Assembly (NCBI RefSeq): GCF_021608225.1
Contig: NZ_JAKIJS010000001.1
Location: 1,798,001-1,862,000, forward strand
Direction of reading: 5' to 3'
Length of the DNA stretch: 64,000 nt
Origin: Pseudalkalibacillus berkeleyi
GTDB lineage: Bacteria > Bacillota > Bacilli > Bacillales > Fictibacillaceae
Made by a program: the position numbers and the translations under genes. Shown piece by piece: positions 49,862 through 64,000 of this stretch. Below the pieces are notes generated by a model, which was not told the origin of the DNA, searched no databases, and worked only from the letters and a program-made list of their open reading frames with translations. The stretch's first letter is position 1. The number at the start of each line of letters is the position of its first letter.

Positions 49862-50968
49862 TTATAAATTTGGCACCCGAGTAGTTAGTGTCGTTCCATT
49901 CGATGAGTTTATCTCCAAACTACCATTAACAAATTCAAGTCGTTCTCTCATCCCTTGGAGTCCATGACCTGATAAAGTGGACACTTTATCAGAGATGCCA
50001 ATTCCATTATCTTGAACGCTTAACAACACTTCATGAGGTGATTGTTTGATAAGAACATTACAAGAAGTAGCTTGGCTATGCTTGACCACATTGGTTACAG
50101 CTTCTTTCAAACACATGCTTAACACATTTTCAACCAATAGTGGTGTATTGGTTAGTTCAGGGTCACCTTCAATATTTAAATCCATTTCAGCCGCTTCTAC
50201 CATTTGTTGGATGTGAATGATTTCGTCTTTTAATTTTACTCTCCTCATATCTGAAACCATCTCTCGCACTTCTTTTAATGCAGTTCTTGCTGTTTTGTGA
50301 ATATCATCGATTTCTATTTTCGCTGAATTGAGGTTCTTATACATTAATTTACCTGCCAAGTCACTTTTCAGTCCAATAAGGGAGAGTTTTTGTCCTAAAG
50401 TATCATGTAGGTCTCTAGCTATCCGTTGACGTTCTTCAAAGACCATTAACTGAGAAATTCTTTTATTTGCATCTTCTAATTGACCTTCTAATCTTTCCTG
50501 CTTGATTTTGTTAAACATTGTGAAAGGCAACAAAATGACACCAATTAAACAAATAATAATGAAAGGAAATTGAGAAAAAAACATTTCATTTTGTCTGAAA
50601 ACGACTATGCTAACAGCTACAATCGTAGAAAGAAGGTGAATGATATATAACGTTAGAAACCCGACTTTCTTCTGTATGTTGCCAATAAAAAAAGCTAAGA
50701 AAAGTGCAAAATAAACATACCCAAAAAGTATTGTCATCACAACACTTATAGCCATTTCTATACTTACCCAAACGTAGACAGACCACCCCTTAGAAATAAA
50801 GGATAATCTGTAGGATGTAAAAAACATCAGAAATGCTAATACACCGATAATAATTTCCATTGTGGAAGAAGATCTGAAAATGAAATAGAGTGGAAGTATA
50901 CAAAATACAATCCATACATAGGAGCTAAGCCCCGTATTTTTCGGAATAACATGATACCAATTACGCAT
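49862..50968 (-). CDS. desK: Membrane thermosensor kinase DesK
   Basis: 368-residue histidine kinase with four to five N-terminal helices (about 15-150) that sense membrane thickness/fluidity, a coiled-coil linker, H188 in ARDLHDTLGQKLS (same number as in B. subtilis) and an HATPase_c domain (about 270-366, LKEAVTNVVKHSQA, GHGLQGMRERL). 25 bases before desR. Confidence 0.95.
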   Translation of the reverse strand: MRNWYHVIPKNTGLSSYVWIVFCILPLYFIFRSSSTMEIIIGVLAFLMFFTSYRLSFISKGWSVYVWVSIEMAISVVMTILFGYVYFALFLAFFIGNIQKKVGFLTLYIIHLLSTIVAVSIVVFRQNEMFFSQFPFIIICLIGVILLPFTMFNKIKQERLEGQLEDANKRISQLMVFEERQRIARDLHDTLGQKLSLIGLKSDLAGKLMYKNLNSAKIEIDDIHKTARTALKEVREMVSDMRRVKLKDEIIHIQQMVEAAEMDLNIEGDPELTNTPLLVENVLSMCLKEAVTNVVKHSQATSCNVLIKQSPHEVLLSVQDNGIGISDKVSTLSGHGLQGMRERLEFVNGSLEINSSNGTTLTTRVPNL

Positions 50969-51058
50969 GGGGGTCCCCTTTTTAAATTTTATTTACAAGT
51001 CGATCCAAAATACAACAATTACATTAAGTATAACAAAAAACAAAAAACGATTTACTAG

Positions 51059-51089
51059 AAAACCCTTCTCTACATGACGGAAGGGTTTT
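51059..51089 (-). terminator. Hairpin between des and desK
   Basis: AAAACCCTTC / GAAGGGTTTT stem on the minus strand, short T stretch only. Likely a partial terminator giving more des than desKR transcript. Confidence 0.55.
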
Positions 51090-51101
51090 AATCAGTCGTA
51101 T

Positions 51102-52154
51102 TTATTTTTGTTGTAGACTTGGTCTTATTGTGTTCAGCTGTCCGCTTGTTTTTAATTTCTTCTTTAAGTGTTTGAGGTCATTAAAGCCTACAAACGTCTT
51201 GTTTTTCTCATCAAACAATCTGAAACGAATAGATTTCAAACTTGATGCCAAGGTTATGGTCGTCGCGTTTTGTAACGGTGGTGTTGATTCGTGTGCTTTT
51301 TCTAGATGATAATTGGGTACCCTTGGGCTTAAGTGATGTACATGATGGAATCCAATATTACCTGTTAACCATTGCATTAACTTCGGGAGTTTGTAATAGG
51401 AACTACCATCCACGGCAGCTTTTACATAGTCCCACTCATCTTCTGATTCAAAATAAGAATCTTCAAATTGATGTTGAACATAAAATAACCAAATACCGAG
51501 CGAACCAGATACTAAAAGGATAGGGATTTGTATAATCATAAAAGCTTGCCAACCGATTGCGAATATCATAAGCCCATAAATGGTAGCGATTGAAAGGTTG
51601 ATGAAGTATGTGTTCAATCGTTCCTTTCGTCTCGCTCCTTTTCGATTAACACGATTCGAAATGAAGTAAAGATAAATTGGACCGAATCCAAACATAATAA
51701 TCGGATTCCGGTAAAGACGGTATGACAATCTGGTCCAAAAAGAGGCAGCAAAATACTCATCAACGGTCATCACCCAAACATCTCCAGTTCCACGCTTATC
51801 TAAGTTACCACTGGTTGCGTGATGGATCGTGTGACTACGTTTCCATTTTTCAAAAGGAAAATGAGTAATGATTCCAGTAATCGTACCTAGTACTCGATTG
51901 GCTCTTTTGCTTTTGAAGAAAGATTGGTGAGTGCAATCATGAAAAATAATGAAAGTCCGCACAACAAATCCTGCTGTCACAACTGCCAATGCCAAGGTCA
52001 ACCATATAGAAACAGACAAACTTTGGTATGCAAGGAACCAAAGCAAGAAGAATGGTGGAATGGTATTGATCAGCTGATATACACTTGATTTAGTATCGGA
52101 TTGTTCGAAAGAAGTAATATTTTTTCTGAGTTCTCTTTGTTTATTTATGCTCAT
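51102..52154 (-). CDS. des: Membrane acyl-lipid desaturase Des
   Basis: 350-residue fatty-acid desaturase. Three histidine boxes: HDCTH at 72-76, HTIHH at 108-112 and HHVHH at 270-274. Four membrane helices in two pairs. B. subtilis Des makes delta-5 unsaturated phospholipid acyl chains after cold shock. First gene of des-desK-desR, with a DesR-type operator upstream. Confidence 0.95.
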   Translation of the reverse strand: MSINKQRELRKNITSFEQSDTKSSVYQLINTIPPFFLLWFLAYQSLSVSIWLTLALAVVTAGFVVRTFIIFHDCTHQSFFKSKRANRVLGTITGIITHFPFEKWKRSHTIHHATSGNLDKRGTGDVWVMTVDEYFAASFWTRLSYRLYRNPIIMFGFGPIYLYFISNRVNRKGARRKERLNTYFINLSIATIYGLMIFAIGWQAFMIIQIPILLVSGSLGIWLFYVQHQFEDSYFESEDEWDYVKAAVDGSSYYKLPKLMQWLTGNIGFHHVHHLSPRVPNYHLEKAHESTPPLQNATTITLASSLKSIRFRLFDEKNKTFVGFNDLKHLKKKLKTSGQLNTIRPSLQQK

Positions 52155-52211
52155 ATGTCCTCCTCAAGTCTAATACTCTCAATTCTTTATTTGGATATTT
52201 CATCTACTTCT

Positions 52212-52276
52212 ATAATAAAGAACAGAAATAAACAGGAGAATTCATAATCGTCATGAATGTATATGACAAGTGTCAT
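52212..52276 (-). promoter_or_regulatory. des promoter with DesR operator
   Basis: Minus-strand promoter with poor -35 TTCTCC (52235-52240), 17 bases, TATTAT (52212-52217). Just upstream are two overlapping dyads: GTCAT-8-ATGAC (52250-52267) and the perfect ATGACA-AG-TGTCAT (52263-52276). A weak -35 with adjoining dyads is what an activator-dependent promoter needs. Confidence 0.75.
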
Positions 52277-52388
52277 GTTTTTTAGTATTTGTCACAAAAT
52301 CGAAACATTTAAATGGGAAAATAATCTAATTTGTTGATACCACAACCTCAATACCAATCATAGGTCTAAGTTCAATAGGGTGTGATTC

Positions 52389-54071
52389 TTATCTGAAAAA
52401 CACCAAGCCTTCAAATGGTCTTAATGTTAATGTTTCTGCTAGGACAACCTCTTGGTAGTTTTGCACAATAACCCTGTACTGCTTCAGATCCTCGATGAGC
52501 AACGGATCTCTCAAAGATAGGTCCTTCTCGGAGAAATTACATAGTACGATTAATTCCTCTGTATCACTTTTTCTTCGGTATGCAAACAGGTTTGGATCTT
52601 CTTCGTAAAGTAAGGTGAAATTACCGCCTGTGATGACATCATATTTCTTTCTCAAAGCAATTAGGTGCTGATAATGATAGAAAATAGAATGATCATCAAA
52701 TAAAGCTGCCTCAACGTTAATTTCTTTATATCGTGGATTTGCTTCTATCCATGGTTCTCCTTCTGTAAAGCCCCCATGCTTTGAGTCATCCCATTGCATT
52801 GGTGTCCTTGCATTGTCTCGTCCTTTTACATATATGGAATTCATAATTTGGTTAACTGGAACACCTTGCGATTGTTTTTCCTTGAACATATTTAGTGTTT
52901 CCAAATCTTTATACTGTTCGATAGAAGGAAATTTAACATTTGTCATACCGATTTCTTCACCTTGATAAATGTAAGGCGTGCCTTGTAGCATGTGTAAGCA
53001 AGTCGCAAGCATTTTGGCAGATTCTATCCGGAATGCTTCGTCATTTCCAAAACGTGAAACGATTCTCGGTTGGTCATGGTTATTCCAATAAAGACTATTC
53101 CATCCGATATTGTGTAGTTTTGTTTGCCACTTCTCAAAGTTTTTCTTTAAGTCTACTAAATGTAAAGGTTGATAATCCCACTTGTCGGAACGACTATCGA
53201 GTTCCATGTGTTCAAACGTAAAGACCATGTTCAACTCATTATTGGATGGGTCCGTGTATAAAATAGCATCGTCTGTACTAGCGCCTGGCATCTCCCCAAC
53301 CGTTAACGTGTCATACTTTGATAACACTTCACTATTCATTTCCTTCAAGAATTCATGTATTCTTGGACCATTCATAAAATAGAGAGAACCGTCACCATAT
53401 ATCATACCTTCTCGGACAATTCCATCTGGTAAATTTGGAACCTTTGAGATGAAATTGATGACATCCATACGAAATCCATCTACACCTTTATTAAGCCAGA
53501 ATGCCATCATCCTATAAATTTCATCCCGTACATTTTTGTTTTCCCAATTTAGATCAGGTTGTTTTCTAGAAAAGATATGGAGGTAATACTCATCAGTCTG
53601 TTCATCATATTCCCAAGCTGGACCGCCGAAGACTGAACCCCAATTGTTAGGTTCCTTGTCGTTTTCTCCGCTTCTCCAAATATAGTAATCTCGATAATGT
53701 TGATCCTTACTTTTCTTTGATTCCAGAAACCATTTATGTTCGTCAGAAGTATGATTGACAACAAGATCCATGATTATTTTCATCCCACGAGTATGCGCTT
53801 CTTCTAGTAAATATTCAAAGTCATCCATCGTCCCGAATTCTTGCATGATTTCATGGTAATCACGGATATCGTATCCATTATCGTCATTAGGAGAATCATA
53901 AATGGGGCTTAACCAAATAACATCAATACCAAGTTTATGTAAGTAGTCTAGTTTACTTACAATTCCTTGGAGGTCACCAATTCCATCTCCATCTGAATCC
54001 AAAAAACTTCTCGGATAAATTTGATAGACGACACTCCTTTTCCACCACTCTTCACATTGTTTAGTACTCAT
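52389..54071 (-). CDS. malL: Oligo-1,6-glucosidase (GH13_31)
   Basis: 560-residue cytoplasmic alpha-glucosidase. GH13 catalytic triad: D203 (GFRMDVINF), E260 (TVGEMPG), D333 (NNHDQPR). The residue after the nucleophile is V204, which in characterised GH13_31 enzymes goes with alpha-1,6 (isomaltose) preference. Last gene of the cluster, separated from the second glucosidase by a hairpin. Trehalose-6-phosphate hydrolase is a less likely alternative. ATG at 54071 chosen over an adjacent GTG. Confidence 0.88.
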   Translation of the reverse strand: MSTKQCEEWWKRSVVYQIYPRSFLDSDGDGIGDLQGIVSKLDYLHKLGIDVIWLSPIYDSPNDDNGYDIRDYHEIMQEFGTMDDFEYLLEEAHTRGMKIIMDLVVNHTSDEHKWFLESKKSKDQHYRDYYIWRSGENDKEPNNWGSVFGGPAWEYDEQTDEYYLHIFSRKQPDLNWENKNVRDEIYRMMAFWLNKGVDGFRMDVINFISKVPNLPDGIVREGMIYGDGSLYFMNGPRIHEFLKEMNSEVLSKYDTLTVGEMPGASTDDAILYTDPSNNELNMVFTFEHMELDSRSDKWDYQPLHLVDLKKNFEKWQTKLHNIGWNSLYWNNHDQPRIVSRFGNDEAFRIESAKMLATCLHMLQGTPYIYQGEEIGMTNVKFPSIEQYKDLETLNMFKEKQSQGVPVNQIMNSIYVKGRDNARTPMQWDDSKHGGFTEGEPWIEANPRYKEINVEAALFDDHSIFYHYQHLIALRKKYDVITGGNFTLLYEEDPNLFAYRRKSDTEELIVLCNFSEKDLSLRDPLLIEDLKQYRVIVQNYQEVVLAETLTLRPFEGLVFFR

Positions 54072-54099
54072 CACAGATTCTCCTTTTAATTTAATTTTT

Positions 54100-54137
54100 C
54101 TTACTCAAAAATGAGGCCCCTGTTTAGGACCCCATTT
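54100..54137 (-). terminator. Hairpin between the two glucosidase genes
   Basis: Minus-strand AAAATGGGGTCC / GGGGCCTCATTTTT stem that includes the stop codon of the upstream gene. Partial terminator or mRNA-stability hairpin. Confidence 0.55.
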
Positions 54138-55785
54138 TATATACTCGAGCCTCATAAGGCTTTAACGTTATGGTGTATGTAGGATCATGCTCATGTACCT
54201 CATAATTATTAAGAAGAAGTTGATCGCGAACTAATAAGTGATCCGTTTCAAGTTCAGCTGGTGTTTCAGATAAATTAGTGATGATCATCACATGCTCATG
54301 TTTAAGCGTTCTTGTATACGCGTATACCTGTGGATGATCTTCCAAAATTAAATCGTATACCCCATAAGTGAATATATGGTTCTCTTTCTTTAACTGAATC
54401 ATTTTCCTATAAAAGTGAAGAATGGAGTTTGGGTCTGACAGCTGTTCTTCTACATTAATGTATGCATAATTAGGATTCACACCTAACCAAGGCGTTTCCT
54501 TAGTAAAACCACCATTAGATGCACTTGACCATTGCATCGGAGTACGTGAATTGTCACGACTCGTTTTCCAAATCATCTCCATGATTGTCTTTTCTGGGAT
54601 GCCTTCTTCTTTTTTGATATGGTATAAATTCTTGGTTGCAACATCATTGTATTCCTCGATCGTATCGAATTGGACATTTGTCATGCCAATTTCTTGTCCT
54701 TGGTAAATAAATGGAGTGCCTTGCATGAAGAAATACATAGCCCCTAAGGCAGTAGCGCTTTCATACCAAAATTCATTATCGTTTCCCCAGGTAGATACGA
54801 CTCTTGCTTTATCATGATTTTCGATAAATAGTGCATTCCATCCTTTGTTCTCCAAGCCTTTCTGCCAACTTGTAAACACTCTTTTTAACTCTGCAAGATC
54901 CATCTCATTTTTCTCAGGATCCCATAGCCCTAAATGTTCAAATTGAAATACCATGTTAAACTTTCCTGAATCTTTTCCTACCCATAGCTCAGCATCTTGT
55001 ACATTTACACCGTTTGCTTCACCAACCGTCATAATGTCATATTTAGCAAATGTCTCATCTCTTAATTCCTCTAATAAAGGATGTATGCCTTTGACATTCA
55101 TATGCAGGTCAAAGGATGGTACATACTTTAACCCGTTTGGATTAGGTAGATCGGGAAGACCTTCTTCTTTTTTAATATGGCTTATGGCATCGACTCGAAA
55201 TCCATCGACTCCTTTATCCAACCACCCATTCACCATTTTATATAGCGCTTCTCTCACTTCTTCATTTTCCCAGTTCAAATCTGGTTGTTTTCTAGAAAAG
55301 ATGTGCAAGAAGTATTGTCCGGTTTGTTCATCATATTCCCAAGCAGAACCACCAAAAATACTTTCCCAATTATTCGGCTCTCTTCCATCCTTACCATCGG
55401 ACCATATGTACCAATCACGTTTTGGACTGTCCCTCGATTCTCGTGAGTCTATAAACCATGGGTGTTCATCACTTGTATGATTAATCACTAAATCAATAAT
55501 TAGCTTCATTCCACGTTTATGTACTTCTGATAACAGTTGATCAAAATCTGCCATCGTTCCGAATTCAGGCAGGATGTCTTCATAATCGCTAATATCATAC
55601 CCGTTATCATCATTTGGGGATTGATAAAATGGACAGATCCAAATGACGTCAATTCCTAAATCTTTTAAATAGTCTAGCTTTAAAATAACACCTTGTAAGT
55701 CGCCAATACCATCATGATTAGAGTCCATAAAACTTCTCGGATATATTTGATAGGCGACCGCTTCTTTCCACCAAACTTTTGTCAT
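54124..55785 (-). CDS. Alpha-glucosidase (GH13_31), second copy
   Basis: 553-residue paralogue of its neighbour. Catalytic D199 (GFRVDAISH), E256 (TVGEANGV), D325 (ENHDKAR). The residue after the nucleophile is A200; an alanine here is found in enzymes that accept alpha-1,4 linkages such as maltose. A 13-residue insertion-like stretch PDLPNPNGLKYVP follows. ATG at 55785 preceded by GAGAGGAT; a longer in-frame ATG reading is not supported. Together the two enzymes should degrade mixed-linkage maltooligosaccharides. Confidence 0.87.
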   Translation of the reverse strand: MTKVWWKEAVAYQIYPRSFMDSNHDGIGDLQGVILKLDYLKDLGIDVIWICPFYQSPNDDNGYDISDYEDILPEFGTMADFDQLLSEVHKRGMKLIIDLVINHTSDEHPWFIDSRESRDSPKRDWYIWSDGKDGREPNNWESIFGGSAWEYDEQTGQYFLHIFSRKQPDLNWENEEVREALYKMVNGWLDKGVDGFRVDAISHIKKEEGLPDLPNPNGLKYVPSFDLHMNVKGIHPLLEELRDETFAKYDIMTVGEANGVNVQDAELWVGKDSGKFNMVFQFEHLGLWDPEKNEMDLAELKRVFTSWQKGLENKGWNALFIENHDKARVVSTWGNDNEFWYESATALGAMYFFMQGTPFIYQGQEIGMTNVQFDTIEEYNDVATKNLYHIKKEEGIPEKTIMEMIWKTSRDNSRTPMQWSSASNGGFTKETPWLGVNPNYAYINVEEQLSDPNSILHFYRKMIQLKKENHIFTYGVYDLILEDHPQVYAYTRTLKHEHVMIITNLSETPAELETDHLLVRDQLLLNNYEVHEHDPTYTITLKPYEARVYKMGS

Positions 55786-55838
55786 ATCTATCCTCTCTTT
55801 TCTTAACCATTCATGCACCCAGACTCTTTGTGATTTTC

Positions 55839-56861
55839 CTACTTAATTTTTTTGACTGATTTCCGTTCAATCATCTTGGAAGGAATGGTAATGCGTCTTG
55901 GAAGTACATCTGGGTTTTTAATTTTTTCAACTAAACAACTCGCTGCTTCAAAGCCCAATTGAAATATATTAATATCAACAGTAGTTAATGCAGGCTTTGT
56001 ATATTCAGCAAGTAAGATATTGTTAAAGCTAATCATGGAAATATTTTCAGGAATACTAAGATTCAGCGCTTCTGTATAGCTTAATAATTCAATAGCCAAA
56101 ATATCATCTGCGACCACGATTGCTGTGAGAGGAGCAGTGTCTTCAAGGAATTTAAGTATCCCTTCTTTTCCCTCTTTTTTGATTTGAGCGTCATCAATGA
56201 TATATTTTTCATCAAATGGAATCCCAGCATCACTTAAGGCTTGTTTGTAACCTTCCATTCTATCTATAGTAAATACGAAATCCATATTTGTTCCGATATA
56301 GGCTATATGTTCATGTCCATTCTGTATTAAGTGCTCAGTTATTCGTTTTGTAATATGGATATTGTCATTATCTACATACGTCATATGTTCCGCATTCTTG
56401 TAGGGTCGACCTATAACCGTGAACGGGAATTGTTCAGCAAGTAAGTATTGCATCAATCGGTCATCTGTACGTGAGTATAATAATATGATGCCATCTACCC
56501 TACGTCCTTGTACCATAGCTACAACCTGCTCATAGGTTTCTTCCTCGGTTTTACCTGTTGTTAAATAAACACCATACATATTCTCACAAGCTTTTAAGCT
56601 TATACCTCTAATAACCTCTGGGAAGAAGGGGTTTTGAAGTGCTTGTGTAGCTGAATTGGGCATTACAATACCGATTGTTTGTGTGCTCTTACCGACAAGA
56701 CTTCTCGCTTGTAAATTAGGGTGATAGCCCAATTCTTTCATCGCTTTACGTACACGTTTTTTTGTATTTTCACTTATACCTGGATGGTTACTTATTACTC
56801 GAGAAACAGTCGAAGGTGAAACATTTGCTTCCCTTGCTACTTCTTTAATCGTTACTGCCAT
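55839..56861 (-). CDS. LacI-family transcriptional regulator
   Basis: 340 residues. N-terminal HTH TIKEVAREANVSPSTVSRVI with hinge helix (LQARSLVGKSTQ, about 50-62), then a periplasmic-binding-protein-like effector domain. It lies inside the sugar cluster between the permease genes and the glucosidases and most likely controls it through the two operators at 60.0-60.2 kb. Effector probably maltose or a related disaccharide (inference). Confidence 0.92.
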   Translation of the reverse strand: MAVTIKEVAREANVSPSTVSRVISNHPGISENTKKRVRKAMKELGYHPNLQARSLVGKSTQTIGIVMPNSATQALQNPFFPEVIRGISLKACENMYGVYLTTGKTEEETYEQVVAMVQGRRVDGIILLYSRTDDRLMQYLLAEQFPFTVIGRPYKNAEHMTYVDNDNIHITKRITEHLIQNGHEHIAYIGTNMDFVFTIDRMEGYKQALSDAGIPFDEKYIIDDAQIKKEGKEGILKFLEDTAPLTAIVVADDILAIELLSYTEALNLSIPENISMISFNNILLAEYTKPALTTVDINIFQLGFEAASCLVEKIKNPDVLPRRITIPSKMIERKSVKKIK

Positions 56862-56938
56862 CGGTTGTCTCTCCTCTATACCGAAAAATAATAAACATTT
56901 TCTTTTACTGTCGTACTTTTCTTTCCTAAGTATATCAT

Positions 56939-57754
56939 CTACTTTACAGAGCCTTCTGCGATCCCTTTAATAATATGTTTTTGTAAGAAGAAGTAAACGA
57001 TGATCACTGGAATAATCGCAATTGCTAGTCCTGCTAATGCTAAATGCCATTGTTTTGTATACTCTCCAAAGAAGAAGAACATTTTTAAAGGAATCGTCTC
57101 ATTACCGGTCTTATTAATAACTAAAGATGGGAGAAGGTAGTCATTCCAAATCCATATGATATTTAATATGGCTACGGTTACCGTAATCGGTTTCAACATC
57201 GGGAATATAATATACCAAAATACTTGAAATCTACTTGCACCATCAATTGTTGCAGCTTCGTCTAGTGATTTCGAAATACCACTCAAAGCCCCGTGATAAA
57301 GGAAAATGGACAAACTGGCTCCAAAACCTAAATACATGAAAATTAAACCGGCTTTGTTCAACATGTCTACCTTTCCGAAAATCGCAATTAATGGAATCAT
57401 AACGGATTGGAAAGGAATAAGCATGGCAGCGACGAATAGGAAAAAGATGAAAATACTCATTTTTCCGCCTTTACGTGACAATGCATAAGCCGCCATAGAT
57501 GAAAAAATGATGATGATGACGACTGCTAATGTTGTTATTAGTACAGAGTTAAATAACGTTCTCAGAAAATCTAATTCTATAAAGGCTTCTTTATAGTTAT
57601 CAAATGTAAAAATATCAGGAAGCTTCAATGTATCGGTAAATATTTCTTTTTTTGTTTTAAAGGAATTGACGAACATTAGATAAAACGGGGCAAGCCAAAG
57701 AATTGCTAGAGTCAGCCCGAGTATAGGTATTAAGAATTTCGAATTTCTTCTCAT
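56939..57754 (-). CDS. Sugar ABC transporter permease (MalG type)
   Basis: 271 residues, six helices, EAA loop EAATIDGASRFQVFWYIIFP near 165, the CUT1 signature that docks the ATPase. The ATG overlaps the stop of the MalF-type gene (TAATG) with GGGAGGTTG upstream. Confidence 0.93.
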   Translation of the reverse strand: MRRNSKFLIPILGLTLAILWLAPFYLMFVNSFKTKKEIFTDTLKLPDIFTFDNYKEAFIELDFLRTLFNSVLITTLAVVIIIIFSSMAAYALSRKGGKMSIFIFFLFVAAMLIPFQSVMIPLIAIFGKVDMLNKAGLIFMYLGFGASLSIFLYHGALSGISKSLDEAATIDGASRFQVFWYIIFPMLKPITVTVAILNIIWIWNDYLLPSLVINKTGNETIPLKMFFFFGEYTKQWHLALAGLAIAIIPVIIVYFFLQKHIIKGIAEGSVK

Positions 57755-58614
57755 TACAATTCAACCTCCCGTTTCTTGTTTATGTAAACTTGTGTCAGTG
57801 AGATAGTAGCTACGATCAGGAAGAATATAACCGCTTTTGCCTGTGCAAATGCCATAGCATTTTCTACAAAGGCTGTATTGTAAATTTCCATCGCAACCAT
57901 CTGAGTGGAATTATATGGTCCTCCACCTGTTAAGGATAGGTTTTGATCATACAGTTTAAATGAGTTTGATAGAGTTAAAAATAGACTAACTGTAAATGCT
58001 GGCATAACTAGAGGTAATGTAACGTGAAAGAAACGTTGGAATGAATTAGCACCATCTATTTGCGCCGATTCTAATAATTCTCTTGGTACACCTTCTAAGA
58101 AAGATATATAGATGACCATAACATAACCTGCTAATTGCCAACTCATCAGAATTGCCAGCGCCCAAAACCCTGTCTCTTCTGTTGCCAACCATACCTTGAG
58201 CCCTTCAACCCCTAAAATGTCTCCAATGCTTGAAAACACTTTAATAAAGATAAATTGCCAAATGAATCCTAAAATAAGCCCACCGATCAAGTTCGGCATA
58301 AAAAATATCGTTCTTAATACATGATTACCTTTAAACTTCTGCGTAACGAGTAGAGCTAATGATAATCCAAAGAAATTGATCAGGAATACAGACACAACTG
58401 TAAATTTCGTTGTAAACCATAATGAGTTTCTAAATTCTTCATCACCTATTAATGCTTTATAATGATCAAGGCCAACAAAGCTAGTGGTATAAATACCATT
58501 CCAGTCAGTAAAAGAATAATAAATCCCATACATCAATGGAAGAATGACAACAGCCACTAATGCAATTAGTACTGGAGCCAAGAACACCCAATACCACAAA
58601 TTTCCTTTCCGCAT
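57754..58614 (-). CDS. Sugar ABC transporter permease (MalF type)
   Basis: 286 residues, six helices, EAA loop ESAQIDGANSFQRFFHVTLP near 180. CUT1 family. No large periplasmic P2 loop, as is usual in Gram-positive MalF proteins. Pairs with the MalG-type gene. No ATP-binding subunit is encoded in the cluster. Confidence 0.93.
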   Translation of the reverse strand: MRKGNLWYWVFLAPVLIALVAVVILPLMYGIYYSFTDWNGIYTTSFVGLDHYKALIGDEEFRNSLWFTTKFTVVSVFLINFFGLSLALLVTQKFKGNHVLRTIFFMPNLIGGLILGFIWQFIFIKVFSSIGDILGVEGLKVWLATEETGFWALAILMSWQLAGYVMVIYISFLEGVPRELLESAQIDGANSFQRFFHVTLPLVMPAFTVSLFLTLSNSFKLYDQNLSLTGGGPYNSTQMVAMEIYNTAFVENAMAFAQAKAVIFFLIVATISLTQVYINKKREVEL

Positions 58615-58643
58615 CTGAAATCCTCCTTAGGTGGTGTTACATT

Positions 58644-58680
58644 TAAAAAAAGAGAGGAAACAAAGTCTTCACTTTGTTCC
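58644..58680 (-). terminator. Attenuating hairpin after binding-protein gene
   Basis: GGAACAAAG / CTTTGTTTCC stem (58656-58680) then TCTCTTTTTTT on the minus strand, between binding-protein and permease genes. It should give excess binding protein over permease. Confidence 0.7.
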
Positions 58681-58694
58681 CCATTTGTCTATCA

Positions 58695-59987
58695 TTATTT
58701 TCTAGCTTTTTCCCAAGCTTCTTGAGATTCGCTAACTAACTCTTTCCAGCTCATTTTGTCACTTAAATATTTTTGAATGTTTATACCTAGCTCTTGTTGG
58801 CCCCATCCGGTCGGATAGCCCATGAATGTCCACGATAAGGTTTTACCATTCTGAGCGTACTCATAAATATCTTTTGCTAAGGGATCCGAAATTTTGGATG
58901 TGTCGTAACCCTCATATGCAGGGATGAATTTGAAGTCTTCTAATACAGTTGTTTTACCAGTTTCAGAAGTATATAACCAATCTAAGAACGCTTTTGCTGC
59001 TTCAATTTCTTTAGCATCCTTGTTGCTGTTTACAGCCCAGTACATCGGAACTCCAACTGGCATAGAATCTTCTTTATAACCTTCAACTGGGATAGGAAGC
59101 ATACCAATACCTGAGTTTGCTAACTCTTCATCAATTCCCGCAATTGAGCCATATGCCCAGTTACCTTGCTGAATCATCGCTACTTTACCAGTAGAGAATA
59201 ATTCTTCTACTTGTTGAGAATAGTCAAGGTTCACAGTAGGTTGAGCAGAATACTCGTTTTGTAAATCTAGTACTTTTTTAAATGCATCACTATGAGTGAA
59301 TTCAACTTTGTTAGAATCAAATGCATTTAATACATTTTGATCAAATTCTGGAGCTAAGAATACGTTAGAGAGGTGTAGTCCAGTCACCCATGTTTCCTTT
59401 GCTGGGAGTGCAAATACTGCTTTAAGGCCCAAATCGTCTTTCTTTTTATCTAAAGTTTGAACTGCACCTTCTAATGCTGCATAGCTAGTAATACTTGCTG
59501 GATCAATTCCTGCTTCTTTTAATACATTTTTGTTATAAATGAATCCGTAACCTTCTTGGTTGTAAGGTAATCCTAATACTTTATCGTCTTTTGTTACCCC
59601 TTCGAGCGTTCCTTTTAGAGCAAGTTCTGCTGCTTTTGTATCAGAAAGATCTGCAAGCTTGTCTGCCCAATCTTTAACATCTTGTGGTCCACCAACGTTG
59701 TAAATAGTTGGCTCGTTACCAGATGCAAATTTTGATTTAAGCGCAGCACCGTAATCCTCACCGCCACCGACCGTAGTGATGTTGATGTTTACGTCTTTAT
59801 TTTCTTTTTCATAAGCTTTAACTACTTCTTCAAATTGTTTTTTGAATTCTACCTTGAATTGAAAAATATCCACTGTTACCTTGTCCTTGTTTGAATCATC
59901 GCCTTCGGATGAGGAACAGCCAACTAAAGCTACACTAATTAATAAACCAAATGAAAGAAGTAATAGACCAATCTTTTTTGCTTTCAC
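58695..59987 (-). CDS. Sugar ABC transporter substrate-binding lipoprotein
   Basis: 430-residue solute-binding protein of the CUT1 (MalE/MsmE) type. Signal peptide with lipobox LVGC, lipidated Cys near residue 24, then SSSEGDDSNKDK linker. The central TGKVAMIQQGNWAYGSI motif is typical of this family. GTG start with GGAGG 8 bases upstream. First gene of the alpha-glucoside operon. Confidence 0.94.
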   Translation of the reverse strand: MKAKKIGLLLLSFGLLISVALVGCSSSEGDDSNKDKVTVDIFQFKVEFKKQFEEVVKAYEKENKDVNINITTVGGGEDYGAALKSKFASGNEPTIYNVGGPQDVKDWADKLADLSDTKAAELALKGTLEGVTKDDKVLGLPYNQEGYGFIYNKNVLKEAGIDPASITSYAALEGAVQTLDKKKDDLGLKAVFALPAKETWVTGLHLSNVFLAPEFDQNVLNAFDSNKVEFTHSDAFKKVLDLQNEYSAQPTVNLDYSQQVEELFSTGKVAMIQQGNWAYGSIAGIDEELANSGIGMLPIPVEGYKEDSMPVGVPMYWAVNSNKDAKEIEAAKAFLDWLYTSETGKTTVLEDFKFIPAYEGYDTSKISDPLAKDIYEYAQNGKTLSWTFMGYPTGWGQQELGINIQKYLSDKMSWKELVSESQEAWEKARK

Positions 59988-60036
59988 GAATGAAACCTCC
60001 CTATTTAATATGTTTTAATACTCCAACCACTCGTTA

Positions 60037-60052
60037 ATGAAAACGTTTGCAT
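60037..60052 (-). promoter_or_regulatory. LacI/cre-type operator O1
   Basis: ATGAAAACGTTTGCAT, a LacI/GalR-type palindrome with the central CG, also a good match to the CcpA cre consensus. It lies 50 bases before the binding-protein start in the leader, where bound repressor would block transcription. Confidence 0.75.
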
Positions 60053-60189
60053 TAATTTCAATAAAATAATTTCAGAAAACACTCTTCTGAAATTGTATGA
60101 GTCGCTTACAATGATGATAAATATTAGTAAAGCACTTATAATATGTAGGTTTTAATTAAGCAACATTTTTAAAATTTCAACAAAAATTG

Positions 60190-60205
60190 ATGCAAACATT
60201 TGCAT
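60190..60205 (-). promoter_or_regulatory. LacI-type operator O2
   Basis: ATGCAAACATTTGCAT: 7-base arms ATGCAAA/TTTGCAT around CA. Same layout as O1 and exactly 153 bases upstream, so a single LacI-family protein could loop the promoter between them. The 340-base gap holds no ORF; a promoter candidate is TTTATC-18-TACAAT. Confidence 0.65.
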
Positions 60206-60292
60206 TGAAGGAGTTGAATTAATCTTAGCACAGTAACTTTTTTCTGACAATTAAAATATTTACCTTTTGCAGAAATTAAATAAAATGAAAAA

Positions 60293-60321
60293 AAGCAAGC
60301 GGTGGCGTCCCCCGCTTGCTT
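60293..60321 (-). terminator. Terminator of the small-peptide array
   Basis: AAGCAAGCGG / CCGCTTGCTT stem followed by TTTTTTTC on the minus strand, 7 bases beyond the last small ORF. Confidence 0.88.
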
Positions 60322-60327
60322 CATAGA

Positions 60328-60471
60328 TTACATCATATTCATAAAGTTTGCGGATTTGTTATGGGCTTCATCCATCATGGACTGTACACGTGTTTGGTGT
60401 TCCAGTGTACTTGGGTCGACTTTCCGCACTCGTTTCATAATCGCCAAAATAAACAATTGAAATGGCATCAT
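60328..60471 (-). CDS. YrzI-family small protein, copy 2
   Basis: 47 residues: MMPFQLFILAIMKRVRKVDP start and a methionine-rich end (FMNMM). An N-terminal hydrophobic stretch is followed by a basic, amphipathic region. GGAGTG 7 bases upstream. Clearly a paralogue of the 49-residue ORF at 60585: both have MMPxxLFxLxIxxxVxK. Resembles the Bacillus tandem small-protein family (YrzI). Function unknown. Confidence 0.75.
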   Translation of the reverse strand: MMPFQLFILAIMKRVRKVDPSTLEHQTRVQSMMDEAHNKSANFMNMM

Positions 60472-60503
60472 ATTGAATCACTCCTTCTCTTTTCATTTTC
60501 CTT

Positions 60504-60560
60504 TCAGGTCGTATCTTTCTCCGTTATCATCCAATCAAGAAACACTTTTCCTCTTATCAT
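60504..60560 (-). CDS. 18-residue peptide in YrzI array
   Basis: MIRGKVFLDWMITEKDTT, with AAAGGAGG 9 bases before the ATG. Lies between the two YrzI-like genes and has proper spacing to both. Coding status is inferred only from the ribosome-binding site. Confidence 0.35.
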   Translation of the reverse strand: MIRGKVFLDWMITEKDTT

Positions 60561-60584
60561 TTTCTTCATCCTCCTTTATATTTT

Positions 60585-60734
60585 CTACATGTTGATCATG
60601 TATTGAATGGCTTTGTCACGGTTTCGATTGTAAAGCTTTTCAACTTGTTGACGTTTGTTGATGTCTTCAAATGTTGTTTCAGTTTTTAATACTTTTTGTA
60701 CTATGGTTAAGACAAATAAATGCATCGGCATCAT
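60585..60734 (-). CDS. YrzI-family small protein, copy 1
   Basis: 49 residues: MMPMHLFVLTIVQKVLKTET start, then charged NKRQQVEKLYNRNRDKAIQY and end MINM. GGAGGG 7 bases before the ATG. The hydrophobic start and the V-E-K-x-Y-x-x-N pattern fit YrzI-like small proteins, which occur as tandem copies in the Bacillus group. Confidence 0.78.
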   Translation of the reverse strand: MMPMHLFVLTIVQKVLKTETTFEDINKRQQVEKLYNRNRDKAIQYMINM

Positions 60735-60761
60735 AGTGGATCCCTCCTTTCTATGATTGAG

Positions 60762-60821
60762 CTATTCAGGGTTATACCCCACTTGAGCCAAATACGGTCT
60801 TTCTTGATTTTCTTTCCACAT
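60762..60821 (-). CDS. 19-residue peptide in YrzI array
   Basis: MWKENQERPYLAQVGYNPE, with AAAGGAGG 7 bases upstream. An ATG four bases earlier opens another 17-codon frame but is only 3 bases from GGAGG. No homologue recognised. Coding status inferred from the strong site. Confidence 0.4.
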   Translation of the reverse strand: MWKENQERPYLAQVGYNPE

Positions 60822-60854
60822 GCATAATCCTCCTTTCGTTTTTATATATAAAAA

Positions 60855-60880
60855 CGCCACAAGGATCACTCCCTGTGGCG
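60855..60880 (-). terminator. Hairpin T2 in small-peptide array
   Basis: Minus-strand CGCCACAGGG / CCTTGTGGCG stem plus TTTTTATATAT. Near-copy of hairpin T1 located 66 bases upstream in the transcript. Confidence 0.75.
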
Positions 60881-60923
60881 CATAATAGACAATTAGACAG
60901 AATGAACCGTCTAAAAGGCATAT

Positions 60924-60952
60924 AAAAACCACAGGCAGTTGTTGACCTGTGG
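60924..60952 (-). terminator. Hairpin T1 in small-peptide array
   Basis: Minus-strand CCACAGG / CCTGTGG stem, 10-base loop, then TTTTTATA. Lies after the 27-residue ORF; shares GCCACAGG with T2. Confidence 0.75.
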
Positions 60953-60974
60953 CGATTTTAACAAGATTCAATGT

Positions 60975-61058
60975 TTAAAAATCGTTCGTTTCACTGGTCG
61001 AACTACTTTTGTTAAATTGTATTTGTTTAGCTGCATACCATTTTTGGTTGATCATCAT
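60975..61058 (-). CDS. 27-residue peptide, first gene of small-peptide array
   Basis: MMINQKWYAAKQIQFNKSSS plus STSETNDF. AAAGGAGG stands 9 bases before the ATG and a consensus promoter just ahead of that. Hydrophilic, basic first half, serine-rich second half. No homologue recognised. It ends 23 bases before hairpin T1, so it forms a complete expression unit. Confidence 0.5.
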   Translation of the reverse strand: MMINQKWYAAKQIQFNKSSSTSETNDF

Positions 61059-61098
61059 TTCATTCGACCTCCTTTAGTAATTTTATCCTGCAAAGTGA

Positions 61099-61127
61099 AT
61101 TATACCCATACACATTATATATGTAAA
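61099..61127 (-). promoter_or_regulatory. Promoter of the small-peptide array
   Basis: Minus-strand TTTACA (61122-61127), 17 bases, TATAAT (61099-61104): a nearly perfect sigma-A promoter, transcript start near 61092, 34 bases before the first small ORF. Confidence 0.85.
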
Positions 61128-61142
61128 CCCCAAATATTAAAA

Positions 61143-61808
61143 TTATTGACTTTTTTCTAAAAATGGGTTTTTCCATTCCATTAATACACCATAATTTGCT
61201 GATTCAGGATCATCTAAATAATTTGGTAGCAGTTTGACTGGAGTGCGCCCTGTTTTCATTAGAAACGAAACAACAGGGTCCTTATATGATCCAGTGATGA
61301 TTTCTGCCAAGTACTTTTCTGGCGTCATGTGATCTTTCACCTTCTCGTATCCTGGCATACGCGACCCACCTAATACTGCTTCTAATTTCAATTCAACAAC
61401 TAAATGAAACAGCGATTGCATCAAAAGTCTACCCACCCCTGTTCCCCTAAATTTAGGACGAACACTAATATCTACTACATAAAGTACATTGCCGAAGGTT
61501 TGATGTGTTCCGATTGATCCATTGTCAGTGATCTCATTCCAAGTGTGATCTTCACCATTGTAATCGACGATGAGTGTTGTAATCGAACCAGCAAGAATTC
61601 CATCCACTTCAGCACAAATTGCTCCCTTTGGAAAATGACGAAGATGAGAGGCTAACTGGTCCTTTGTCCACCATAAATCAGAAGGAAATGGGGGGGGGAA
61701 GCATTCTTTTTGTATGGCGATCAACTGGTCAAAGTCATTATTCGTATAGTTTCGAATTGTCGTTTTGAACGGCAGATCTTTATAAAATAAGTACTGAGAG
61801 AATTGCAT
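61143..61808 (-). CDS. GNAT family N-acetyltransferase
   Basis: 221 residues from the ATG at 61808, preceded by AAGGAG at 10 bases; a longer in-frame reading has no site. Acetyl-CoA motif ISVRPKFRGTGVGRLLMQSL near 122-141, preceded by the beta-4 strand VLYVVD. The C-terminal GGSRMPGY and DPVVSFLMKTGR resemble the GNAT part of the nitrilase fusion proteins such as YhcX. A run of nine C residues encodes the PPP of CFPPPFPSD near residue 37. Substrate unknown. Confidence 0.87.
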   Translation of the reverse strand: MQFSQYLFYKDLPFKTTIRNYTNNDFDQLIAIQKECFPPPFPSDLWWTKDQLASHLRHFPKGAICAEVDGILAGSITTLIVDYNGEDHTWNEITDNGSIGTHQTFGNVLYVVDISVRPKFRGTGVGRLLMQSLFHLVVELKLEAVLGGSRMPGYEKVKDHMTPEKYLAEIITGSYKDPVVSFLMKTGRTPVKLLPNYLDDPESANYGVLMEWKNPFLEKSQ

Positions 61809-61880
61809 AGAGTCGTTTCTCCTTGTCCACTTTGTCGTACGTATATATTTTGCTATGTAAACAGAGACTCCTGCATGCAA

Positions 61881-61911
61881 CAAAAAAAGAAAGGACCTTT
61901 GCCCTTCCTTT
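61881..61911 (-). terminator. Terminator after yrhC
   Basis: Short AAAGGA / TCCTTT stem with CTTTTTTTG tail on the minus strand. Confidence 0.6.
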
Positions 61912-61917
61912 AATAAT

Positions 61918-62154
61918 CTATTGATTTGTATTTAGTTTCTTCTTCCATACCGATATTTTCCGATAAAAGACTAAAGCTACTCCGATTGATGTATAGCTTG
62001 CACTTAATAATATAAGTTGGTCAGCTGTCTCTTTTCCTTCAAAAGGGACGATACTGCCAATATAAAGAAAAGCACTCAATGATAGTAGTACAAAGCTAAA
62101 CCGTTTGAAGTCAGCAATCTTATCTTTGATGTTTCGTACCATTTCCTTAGACAA
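61918..62154 (-). CDS. yrhC: YrhC-like membrane protein
   Basis: 78-residue protein with two membrane helices (about 20-38 and 48-65): DFKRFSFVLLSLSAFLYIG is close to the corresponding segment of B. subtilis YrhC, which also follows mccB. TTG at 62154 is chosen (AAGGGGTG 6 bases upstream); a GTG three codons earlier overlaps that site. Function unknown. Confidence 0.8.
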   Translation of the reverse strand: MSKEMVRNIKDKIADFKRFSFVLLSLSAFLYIGSIVPFEGKETADQLILLSASYTSIGVALVFYRKISVWKKKLNTNQ

Positions 62155-62328
62155 TTTCCCCACCCCTTACTAAACCTATCCTAACATGATTTTTGTAAGA
62201 AATATGGGAAATTCAGAAAATTCCTCAAGTTACCAATGTAACATATGGAAGACTCTAATAGTAAAAGATATTCTCTGTACTACATCTGGGATATTCTGTT
62301 TTCTTCTTTTCAAAGACAATTCAACCAA

Positions 62329-62363
62329 CAAAAAAGAGCACGGTTGCCCATGCTCTTTTTTTA
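62329..62363 (-). terminator. Terminator after mccB
   Basis: AAAAAGAGCA / TGCTCTTTTT stem, 10-base loop and T run, 6 bases past mccB. Confidence 0.88.
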
Positions 62364-62368
62364 AGATA

Positions 62369-63505
62369 TTATCCCTCTAATGCTTGTTTCAAGTCTTCGA
62401 TCAAGTCCTCTGCATCTTCAATTCCTACTGAGATTCGTAGTAAGCCGTCTGTGATGCCGAGTTCGTCACGACGGTCCTTTGGGATCGATGCGTGTGTCAT
62501 ACGTGCAGGAGCTGAGATTAAACTTTCAACTGCACCTAAACTTTCAGCCAAAGTGAAGTAACGGACTTTACTTAATACTTGATCCGCTCGCTCTTCACTC
62601 CCTACATCGAAAGAGATCATTCCGCCAAACCCACCTGCTTGACGCTTAGAAAGCTCGTGACCTGGGTGAGACTTAAGTCCAGGATAGTAAATTTTCGTTA
62701 CAGCTGGATGCCCATCTAGGAACTCTGCAATTTGTTTCGTATTACTTTCCGTCGCTTCCATTCTTAATCCAAGCGTCTTAATACCACGGATCAATAACCA
62801 AGAATCCTGTGGTCCGAGGACAGCGCCTGCTGAGTTTTGGATGAAGTGTAACTCTTCAGCTAGTTTCTTCGAATTCACAACGGCTAACCCTGCTACAACA
62901 TCACTGTGGCCACCGATATATTTCGTCGCACTATGCAACACGATATCTGCACCGTGTGTTATTGGTGTTTGCCAATATGGCGTGTTGAACGTATTATCAA
63001 CAATCAACAACACATCATTAGCTTTTGCGATTTTAGAAGCCCCATCAATATCAGTAACTTTCAAAAGTGGATTCGTAGGCGTTTCTACATAGATTGCACG
63101 TGTATTGTCTTGGATTGCATTTTCAATGTTCTCCAAGTTACTCGTATCAACGAATGTGGACTCCAGTCCTAGACGGTTCAAAACTTTTGAGACGAGGCGA
63201 TATGTTCCACCGTACACATCATCAGTAAATACAACATGATCTCCAGTGTTGAACATCATCATGATCGAGTTGATCGCTGCCATACCCGATCCGAAAGCAA
63301 ATCCTGCTTCCCCTTCTTCCAAGTCCTTGATTAACTCTTCTAAAGCATGACGAGTCGGGTTGCCAGTCCGTGAATACTCATATCCTTTAAAATTGCCGAC
63401 GCTTTCTTGTTTATACGTACTCACCTGATAGATTGGAGTAGAAACTGCACCTGTTTGCTCATCACCAACAATACCAGCATGAATCATTTTAGTCTTTGGC
63501 TTCAT
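62369..63505 (-). CDS. mccB: Cystathionine gamma-lyase / homocysteine gamma-lyase MccB
   Basis: 378-residue PLP enzyme of the Cys/Met metabolism family. PLP lysine in LHSATKYIGGHSDVVAG near 197, YSRTGNPTR near 45-53, and DNTFNTPYWQTP near 170. Position directly after the CysK-type gene marks it as MccB, converting cystathionine to cysteine in reverse transsulfuration, rather than MetI/MetC. ATG is 2 bases past the mccA stop. Confidence 0.92.
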   Translation of the reverse strand: MKPKTKMIHAGIVGDEQTGAVSTPIYQVSTYKQESVGNFKGYEYSRTGNPTRHALEELIKDLEEGEAGFAFGSGMAAINSIMMMFNTGDHVVFTDDVYGGTYRLVSKVLNRLGLESTFVDTSNLENIENAIQDNTRAIYVETPTNPLLKVTDIDGASKIAKANDVLLIVDNTFNTPYWQTPITHGADIVLHSATKYIGGHSDVVAGLAVVNSKKLAEELHFIQNSAGAVLGPQDSWLLIRGIKTLGLRMEATESNTKQIAEFLDGHPAVTKIYYPGLKSHPGHELSKRQAGGFGGMISFDVGSEERADQVLSKVRYFTLAESLGAVESLISAPARMTHASIPKDRRDELGITDGLLRISVGIEDAEDLIEDLKQALEG

Positions 63506-63506
63506 C

Positions 63507-64000
63507 TTACATGCCTCCTTGATAGATCTTTTTACTTAAGTAGCGCTCACTGCTGTCTGCAAAGATCGTTACGATATGGCTACCTGGTTCTGCCTTTTCC
63601 GCTTCGATTAAAGCAGCATGTAAGGCTGCACCAGAGGAACTTCCGACGAGTAGTCCTTCTTTTTGAGCAAGCTCTTTTACACGTTGAAATGCATCTACAT
63701 CATCAACGGTATGAATCGCATCAAAATAAGAAGTGTCCATATATGCTGGTAAGAACTCCATACCAATACCCTCTGTTTTGTGCGGGCCTGGTTCTGCACC
63801 ATTTAGGATTGATCCTTCTGGTTCAACAATGACCGTCTTGATTTCTTGATTTTGCTCTTTCAAATAACGAGCCGTTCCCATGAACGTTCCACCAGTACCT
63901 GCACCTGCTAGGAAAATATCTACCTTACCGTCAAGCGCATCATAAATTTCTGGTGCCAGGGATTTATAATACGTGTTCGGATTTGCAGGATTTGCAAATT
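63507..64000 (-). CDS. mccA: Cystathionine beta-synthase MccA (partial, 5' end outside)
   Basis: C-terminal 164 residues of a CysK/CBS-family PLP enzyme; reading continues without a stop to the window end. Visible parts: FANPANPNTYYKS, the PLP phosphate-binding loop GAGTGGTFMGTARYLKE, VEPEGS, and the late GLLVGSSSGAALHAA. In B. subtilis mccA (yrhA) precedes mccB and makes cystathionine from O-acetylserine and homocysteine. An internal ATG gives an apparent shorter ORF, but this is not the real start. Alternative: plain O-acetylserine sulfhydrylase. Confidence 0.9.
   Translation of the reverse strand, partial: FANPANPNTYYKSLAPEIYDALDGKVDIFLAGAGTGGTFMGTARYLKEQNQEIKTVIVEPEGSILNGAEPGPHKTEGIGMEFLPAYMDTSYFDAIHTVDDVDAFQRVKELAQKEGLLVGSSSGAALHAALIEAEKAEPGSHIVTIFADSSERYLSKKIYQGGM

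Follow-up and report, generated by a model that had tools for sequence, protein, structure and literature searches.

A structured leader RNA and a predicted Rae1 site in a yrzI-type small-peptide operon of Pseudalkalibacillus berkeleyi

The yrzI operon of Bacillus subtilis comprises the small open reading frames (ORFs) S1024 to S1027 together with yrzI, and is a target of the endoribonuclease Rae1. The operon type, the YrzI family and the action of Rae1 on S1025 are already known in that species. Indeed, seven Rae1 candidates include S1025, S1024, S1026 and yrzI (PMC10632193), and S1025 has been termed the first characterized Rae1 substrate (PMC11780869), while the peptides of the yrzI mRNA are described as of unknown function (PMC10100781). 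In this context we present an array of five small ORFs in a 64,000-nt stretch of the 3.5 Mb genome of P. berkeleyi (contig NZ_JAKIJS010000001.1, positions 1,798,001 to 1,862,000; hereafter the window, in which positions are counted from the first nucleotide). In this bacterium the array represents the yrzI small-peptide operon known from B. subtilis, and all its elements lie on the minus strand.

A second described system with related features is the bmrBCD operon of B. subtilis, where a leader ORF must be translated if RNA polymerase is to pass a terminator upon induction (PMC4191407). The mRNAs of both operons react to the same disturbances: depletion of a tRNA maturase raises yrzI as well as bmrCD mRNA (PMC10100781), and both are likewise elevated in a whiA mutant (PMC10714963).

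The array of the window shares with the B. subtilis operon YrzI, the leader and an adjoining S1025-type mini-ORF with the motif EKD, as seen in the close relative B. spizizenii; B. subtilis itself is not among the yrzI loci examined. It differs from that operon in having two YrzI-type proteins, which flank the EKD ORF, an extra variable mini-ORF (ORF2), an EKD peptide of the form DWxxTEKDTT, and a GNAT and a YrhC gene upstream, where the B. subtilis-group-like locus L037 has a formate/nitrite transporter. The likeness to bmrBCD lies in an apparently translated leader ORF with a terminator. However, small YrzI proteins would be controlled here and a drug pump there, and the leader of the window has two tandem terminators outside the ORF as well as a helix that sequesters the Shine-Dalgarno (SD) sequence. 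We consider it likely that the yrzI operon is controlled at two points where translation is read, an attenuator in the leader and a Rae1-cut mini-ORF (ORF4), and the design of the operon is kept across many genera of Bacilli.

The yrzI-type array and its conservation

The five ORFs start at 61058, 60821, 60734, 60560 and 60471, each with a GGAGG or GGAGTG site 7-9 nt upstream. ORF3 (60585..60734; 49 amino acids, aa) reaches 30.0 bits against the PF09501 profile (cut-off 23) and is accordingly a member of this family, here called YrzI-A; it begins with MMPMHLFxLTI, in contrast to the MTxxLxFxTxTI of the PF09501/TIGR02413 YrzI family. The initial annotation had regarded ORF3 and ORF5 (60328..60471; 47 aa) as two paralogues of YrzI type and had named a search with both profiles as a check, which turned out differently for the two. 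ORF5, with 13.9 bits, stays under the PF09501 cut-off, ORF3 itself fails TIGR02413 (22.4 versus 47.05 bits), and the upstream neighbour is not constant, that of L037 not being YrhC; these three points weigh against the identification. Despite the sub-cut-off score, the order of the genes, the alignment with ORF3 (28% identity) and a low ratio of nonsynonymous to synonymous change (dN/dS, ~0.14) support ORF5 as a coding, diverged YrzI copy (YrzI-B).

Within the genus, the order ORF1, ORF2, YrzI-A, EKD ORF, YrzI-B is found in 8/8 genomes examined, so that the synteny proposed as a further check is borne out. For one of these genomes (G002) the Pfam search returned only a weak, unrelated match; the array is nonetheless present, and was missed by the EKD pattern because EMD replaces EKD. 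Over the other seven genomes, dN/dS is ~0.17 for ORF3, ~0.10 for ORF4 and ~0.14 for ORF5, which indicates that ORFs 3-5 are protein-coding and under purifying selection. By contrast, the values for ORF1 (~0.67) and ORF2 (~0.61) show that their peptides are not conserved, although start sites and approximate sizes are kept. ORF2 (60762..60821; 19 codons) retains its SD sequence and its length in 8/8 genus genomes, and in L018 (genus g4) an EKD mini-ORF occupies its position. Synonymous change (pS) is lower in ORF4 (0.30) than in the remaining four ORFs (0.56-0.67), which indicates that its RNA sequence is constrained as such. Taken together, the small-protein system postulated at the outset holds as an operon with its own promoter, and it is a homologue of the yrzI operon of B. 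subtilis rather than a system with unknown relatives.

For comparison beyond the genus, PF09501 matches over the cut-off were found in 27/250 sampled genomes of the class, and a scan of named genomes with a YrzI alignment yielded 67 loci from Bacillus, Metabacillus, Rossellomorea, Neobacillus, Anoxybacillus and others. The 106 yrzI loci used below are partly redundant: the window itself is included as L001, a single genome contributes the overlapping pieces L048 and L065, several further loci look like the species of named records, and 101 are distinct around yrzI. Lineage groups were assigned by hand in the analyses of pairing (R:r and r:H1, see below), codons, ORF1 frame and folding.

The leader RNA

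The array begins with a promoter (TTTACA-17-TATAAT, 61099..61127) that agrees with the consensus at 11/12 positions. Across seven aligned leaders of the genus TTTAC is kept in 7/7 and TATAAT in 6/7 (TATACT in L024); by count, promoter-like matches are not above chance (8 found versus 8.6 expected). It is followed by an arm R (GGTCGAA, 61063..61069), which overlaps and follows the SD sequence of ORF1 (AAAGGAGGTCGAA), and by ORF1 itself (60975..61058; 27 codons, MMINQKWYAAKQIQFNKSSSTSETNDF), inside which lies an anti-SD arm r (TTCGACC, 60996..61002) that is paired with R in the minimum free energy fold. Two U-tailed hairpins come next, H1 (60928..60953, GCCACAGG..CCTGTGGT) and H2 (60854..60881, GCGCCACAGG..CCTTGTGGCGT), both from a hairpin scan restricted to loops of 3-8. 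First listed as twin hairpins, they are present and can now be described as conserved tandem terminators of a structured leader.

A strict pattern, GGAGGYYR..ATG (GGAGG, two pyrimidines and a purine, then ATG), occurs in 94/106 yrzI loci, 213-804 nt upstream of the matched yrzI; being required beforehand, it limits the pair types that can become visible, and a variant leader can be made out by eye in some of the 12 loci dropped for a mismatch (at least in L044, L059 and L063). In these 94 leaders, 88 of them distinct, the bases GGYYGAN pair with an arm inside ORF1 whose first base lies 56-91 nt beyond that of GGAGG. Pairs are formed in 634/658 cells, with compensatory types at the successive positions (TA/TG/CG, CG/TA/TG, GC/AT/GT, AT/GT/TA and AT/GT/TA/GC/CG), and the score of the R:r helix is 16.3 versus 9.2 for shuffled arms. 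Since the register of the r arm was picked for best pairing with its own R, both in this count and in a permutation of r against R (0/500), the permutation is biased in favour of the helix and is not used as evidence. An alignment of 24 chosen leaders (A4; left out of 30, for short columns, were L056, L074, L078, L082, L085 and L101) gives 97.0% standard pairs for R:r and H1, whereas shuffling yields 93.4% and the slid controls 30-47%. Changes on both sides affect seven pairs (two in R:r and five in H1) versus 1.3 in shuffles. Similarly, distant leaders found with an RNA model of the leader (R1, see below) form the same helix in other letters (GGTCGTTT/AAACGACC, GGTCGGTA/TACCGGCC and GGTCGTCC/GGACGACC). 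A CAAcTtcATAT-like motif was also noticed by eye just upstream of the r arm, at about positions 60-66 of the A4 consensus; its frame differs between genera.

ORF1 had been listed among the five tiny ORFs of a small-protein or peptide system, but it is better understood as the ORF of a leader whose RNA structure is conserved. A conserved ORF1 peptide was considered and rejected: the genus reads TTCGACC in different frames (SSSTS versus VRPVK), and variable sites are spread evenly over the three codon positions (24, 22 and 21). What is kept is the extent of the frame. In the 89/94 leaders used for frame counts, the stop codon of ORF1 falls between r and H1 in 83 and before r in none, whereas the other two frames meet a stop before r in 70 and 57; the spacing between SD sequence and ATG is 9 in 82 of the 89. 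ORF1, open across r and closed before H1, thus appears to be selected for translation over r, with its peptide sequence free to vary. Downstream, at least one U-tailed hairpin is present in 89/94 leaders and at least two in 65/94, versus 36% and 2.8% in shuffles (the shuffle values were computed with a misplaced leader of L053, the observed counts with its corrected position). Many of these hairpins have CCRCAGG/CCTGYGG arms.

A translatable leader ORF before a terminator, as in a bmrB-type attenuator, is found in this leader, and ribosome-mediated attenuation is likely, the exact anti-terminator aside. In the mechanism that we propose, the strong SD sequence of ORF1 would be held in the R:r helix ahead of the tandem terminators, and the behaviour of the ribosome on ORF1 would set transcription past H1 and H2, as in bmrBCD. 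We infer anti-termination, for which a candidate switch would be that a ribosome on R frees the r arm, which could then pair with the 5' side or the loop of H1. In permutations with one leader per lineage, r:H1 pairing as good as observed was reached in a fraction of 0.002-0.006 (21 lineages, from 58/103 leaders, i.e. the 94 and nine added ones) or in 19/500 (16 lineages, after 17/94 leaders without a recognised H1 had been dropped). When initiation of ORF1 was masked in the fold, the probability of H1, P(H1), collapsed in two of seven genus leaders (from 0.90 to 0.003 in L007, and from 0.97 to 0.20 in L024) and was partly lowered in the Bacillus group (from 0.74 to 0.49). Several observations speak against this switch: the r:H1 pairing is absent in several lineages and measures only 4 bp in the leader of the window, where P(H1) under masking does not fall but goes from 0.92 to 0.98. 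Nor does it fall in the other four genus leaders or in several other lineages. A universal r:H1 anti-terminator was consequently rejected as a general claim, being patchy over lineages and lacking support from the masked fold in the window; as an alternative pairing in some lineages, r:H1 may be regarded as moderately supported by the sequences.

Alternatively, the leader could primarily be a trans-acting, stand-alone small RNA (sRNA) that is ended by the tandem terminators, with the peptide operon transcribed by read-through. Some published data would agree with this reading, which we nevertheless regard as rather unlikely. For example, enrichment with Hfq has been observed for ncr2184/ncr60, a B. 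subtilis RNA of 234 nt located between yrzI and yrhG (PMC3574147). Its position and length fit the leader, with which it is presumably identical, and the leader of the window, counted from directly behind the promoter through to the last base of H2, measures ~250 nt. In addition, yrzI-yrhG of B. amyloliquefaciens, named as a small-protein transcript, was formerly identified as an sRNA (PMC4634765). However, the SD sequence of ORF1, its spacing, and a frame open over r and closed before H1 would be needless for a pure sRNA, and the 5' untranslated region of 301 nt listed for yrzI in B. licheniformis (PMC3871023) also argues against it. A translation-sensing attenuator remains the preferred reading of the leader. 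With the SD helix and an ORF that closes just before tandem terminators, the proposed sensing of translation is directly testable in B. subtilis.

ORF4 and the predicted Rae1 site

ORF4 (60504..60560; 18 codons, MIRGKVFLDWMITEKDTT) had been said to match nothing, but its end, ..TEKDTT, matches ..TMEKDQV of the 17-codon neighbour of yrzI in B. spizizenii TU-B-10 (L074), where the order of the operon is leader - YrzI - MLRMELLMHYTMEKDQV. Judged by its sequence, ORF4 is an S1025-type mini-ORF and a probable Rae1 target, with the predicted site at the codons GAG-AAA-GAT (E14-K15-D16; 60513..60521). The B. spizizenii ORF carries E13-K14, and a Rae1/YacP homologue is encoded in the same genome as the array (PF05991, 193.9 bits; G000:C4). 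In bmrBCD, a second, cryptic ORF, bmrX, is reportedly also cut by Rae1.

Mini-ORFs of this kind are a regular companion of yrzI. They were sought as SD-led mini-ORFs of 12-30 codons that end in E[KR][DG]x0-4 and lie at most 450 nt from yrzI, with the antisense strand as a control. Matches were obtained at 73/106 loci in sense versus 1/106 in antisense, or among 79/277 sense versus 1/40 antisense mini-ORFs, the control pool thus being the smaller one. Four matches in the sense count (FERG, in L072-L075) are no EKD sites; true sites occur at those loci as well. The longer motif W-x-x-T-E-K-D was tried as a core and rejected, as its DNA pattern occurs in 9/398 class genomes but marks a real mini-ORF only in the genome of the window and in G010, the other seven appearing chance-like. 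Its W is lineage-specific, which leaves EKD alone as the core.

The glutamate codon at this core is uniform. At the E[KR]D sites glutamate is encoded by GAG in 47/47 distinct peptide/codon combinations (72 sites) and in each of the eight lineage groups, assigned by hand, in which the motif occurs, whereas the YrzI frames of the same loci (101 distinct frames) contain 429 GAA versus 114 GAG, and their EK pairs begin with GAA in 22 cases and with GAG in 13. The second codon is AAG in 37, AAA in nine and AGA (arginine) in one, against 123 AAG and 336 AAA in the YrzI background. The E[KR]D sequences are related to each other, so that Fisher p-values are too small at face value. The fixed GAG amid GAA-rich YrzI frames suggests that selection acts on the RNA, and it provides a direct rule for finding more Rae1-type sites.

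In the proposed mechanism, the read-through mRNA would encode the two YrzI-type small proteins with the 18-codon S1025-type ORF between them, and a ribosome translating ORF4 would let the A-site endoribonuclease Rae1 cut at GAG-AAA-GAT. Translation itself would then destroy the mRNA, keeping YrzI at a low level except when translation or the action of Rae1 is perturbed. In this proposal we infer the cutting by Rae1, the inducing signal and the role of YrzI. The EKD site is not universal: in the Metabacillus and Rossellomorea groups, QKD, KKD or LKD stands in its place at some loci, and others end in EKG or EEG. Two points count against this proposal, namely that the mini-ORF in five loci of the Anoxybacillus-type group f5 (L038, L053, L064, L111 and L113) ends in GDST without EK, and that G002 (L165) has EMD at the EKD position, a natural variant of the predicted site. 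S1025 is reportedly 17 codons long and cut between Glu13 and Lys14.

One could also suppose that the EKD mini-ORF is kept for its peptide, for example as a nascent chain that stalls or as a micropeptide with a function of its own, and not for cutting by Rae1. The strong conservation of the ORF4 amino acids, with KVFLDWxxTEKDTT in 7/8 genus genomes and the lowest dN/dS values, ~0.10, would be in line with such a function. We nevertheless hold it to be unlikely, since the invariant GAG and the low synonymous change of ORF4 point to the RNA, and the residues preceding EKD vary widely between lineages. Even less probable, in our opinion, is a toxin-antitoxin or bacteriocin-like module in which YrzI is a putative toxic protein kept in check by mRNA decay or by the leader. 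The proteins are short and have hydrophobic N-termini, the mRNA is tightly controlled, and some genomes carry yrzI in tandem copies (L049, L109), all of which would fit such a module, but the fixed order of ORFs in 8/8 genus genomes argues against a mobile one. Moreover, Rfam scans of both strands gave no known antitoxin RNA, antisense RNAs not having been looked for otherwise.

The promoter, the five ORFs of 27, 19, 49, 18 and 47 codons with their SD sites and the two hairpins were all recovered at the places on the minus strand given in the initial annotation, and the closing intrinsic terminator (AGCAAGCGG..CCGCTTGCT TTTTTT, about 60320-60285), which is absent from the list of the restricted hairpin scan, was confirmed by direct reading at 60285..60320. 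By the rule of an ATG, a GGAGG-type SD and 17-60 codons, the array region holds five SD-led ORFs, whereas 2000 dinucleotide shuffles average 0.0285 and never exceed two (0/2000 reach five), and three further sites lie elsewhere in the window; the density of ribosome-binding sites is, as had been claimed, not due to chance. Intergenic ORFs that arose by chance or are decaying, for which only the small amino-acid constraint on ORF1 and ORF2 could be adduced, are therefore a negligible alternative in view of the shuffles, the presence of the array in 8/8 genus genomes and the dN/dS of 0.10-0.17, and are already refuted for ORFs 3-5.

Leader-like elements elsewhere and the neighbourhood of yrzI

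No Rfam 15 family exceeds its gathering threshold in positions 50000-64000 of the window or in ten related loci, and permissive searches of the window and L074 gave sub-threshold matches only, which include bacterial sRNA models and are all far below the cut-offs. The model R1 finds the leader in 34/34 genomes of the family examined and, over the class, reaches E 0.01 in 22/151 genomes, with the weakest matches possibly due to chance; the genome of the window has two further weak matches (E 0.77 and 0.91). Absence of an R1 match is weak evidence, because the model misses some Bacillus-type leaders: G047 and G101 are without a match at E 0.01, though L052 and L040 show the leader. In the passages on yrzI in the literature cited, the leader structure, the fixed GAG codon and the spread of the EKD ORF are not described, while earlier work on S1025 may discuss its conservation. 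The yrzI leader, which covaries and has no match in Rfam 15, is probably an RNA class undescribed so far.

We would put forward, tentatively and as a possibility close to but short of even chances, a broader reading: the yrzI leader would represent an undescribed class of Bacilli RNA in which an SD-sequestered leader ORF and tandem terminators convert the state of the ribosome into read-through, and together with the codon-fixed Rae1 site this would make yrzI operons doubly translation-gated stress reporters. If this is true, the class would also take in leader-like elements that precede GNAT and ABC-transporter genes in a sister genus.

Such elements were seen in the sister genus g2. In L193, L194, L195, L197, L200 and L205, weaker R1 matches comprise an SD sequence GGAGGCGTTGGAC or similar, a GTCCA arm and U-tailed hairpins; most of these six have a short ORF of 9-16 codons (MIQFRKSR.. 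type), and a GNAT with a long C-terminal part follows (assigned by Pfam in L200 and by eye in the rest). In L199, L202 and L203, a leader-like element with a 9-codon ORF (MWISIIQSN in L199 and L202) and one terminator stands directly before an ABC-transporter ATPase gene (assigned by Pfam in L199).

Upstream of the array in the window lie a GNAT acetyltransferase gene (61143-61808), a YrhC homologue on the minus strand (61918..62163; PF14143, 75.9 bits), which serves as a synteny marker, and two pyridoxal phosphate enzymes of MccB/MccA kind by Pfam family. YrhC is likewise found upstream of yrzI in L052 and L038, which supports positional orthology of the window with those loci. The formate/nitrite transporter beside yrzI in L037 is in keeping with the yrzI-yrhG pair named for B. 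subtilis, yrhG being a formate/nitrite transporter gene. By eye, a GNAT between yrhC and the leader was also seen in L007, while a YrhC-like frame in L006 ends only ~190 nt upstream of ORF1, with no GNAT between them.

Downstream of yrzI, two further kinds of small ORF were noted by eye: similar hydrophobic ORFs of 25-28 aa (MFAIVMGIVITVSIALIISAEVSVEAK type) in L111, L113, L124, L053, L064 and L049, and another type of mini-ORF (MPLHILLLSLIFKSNKKES type) in L043, L094, L096, L097 and L128.

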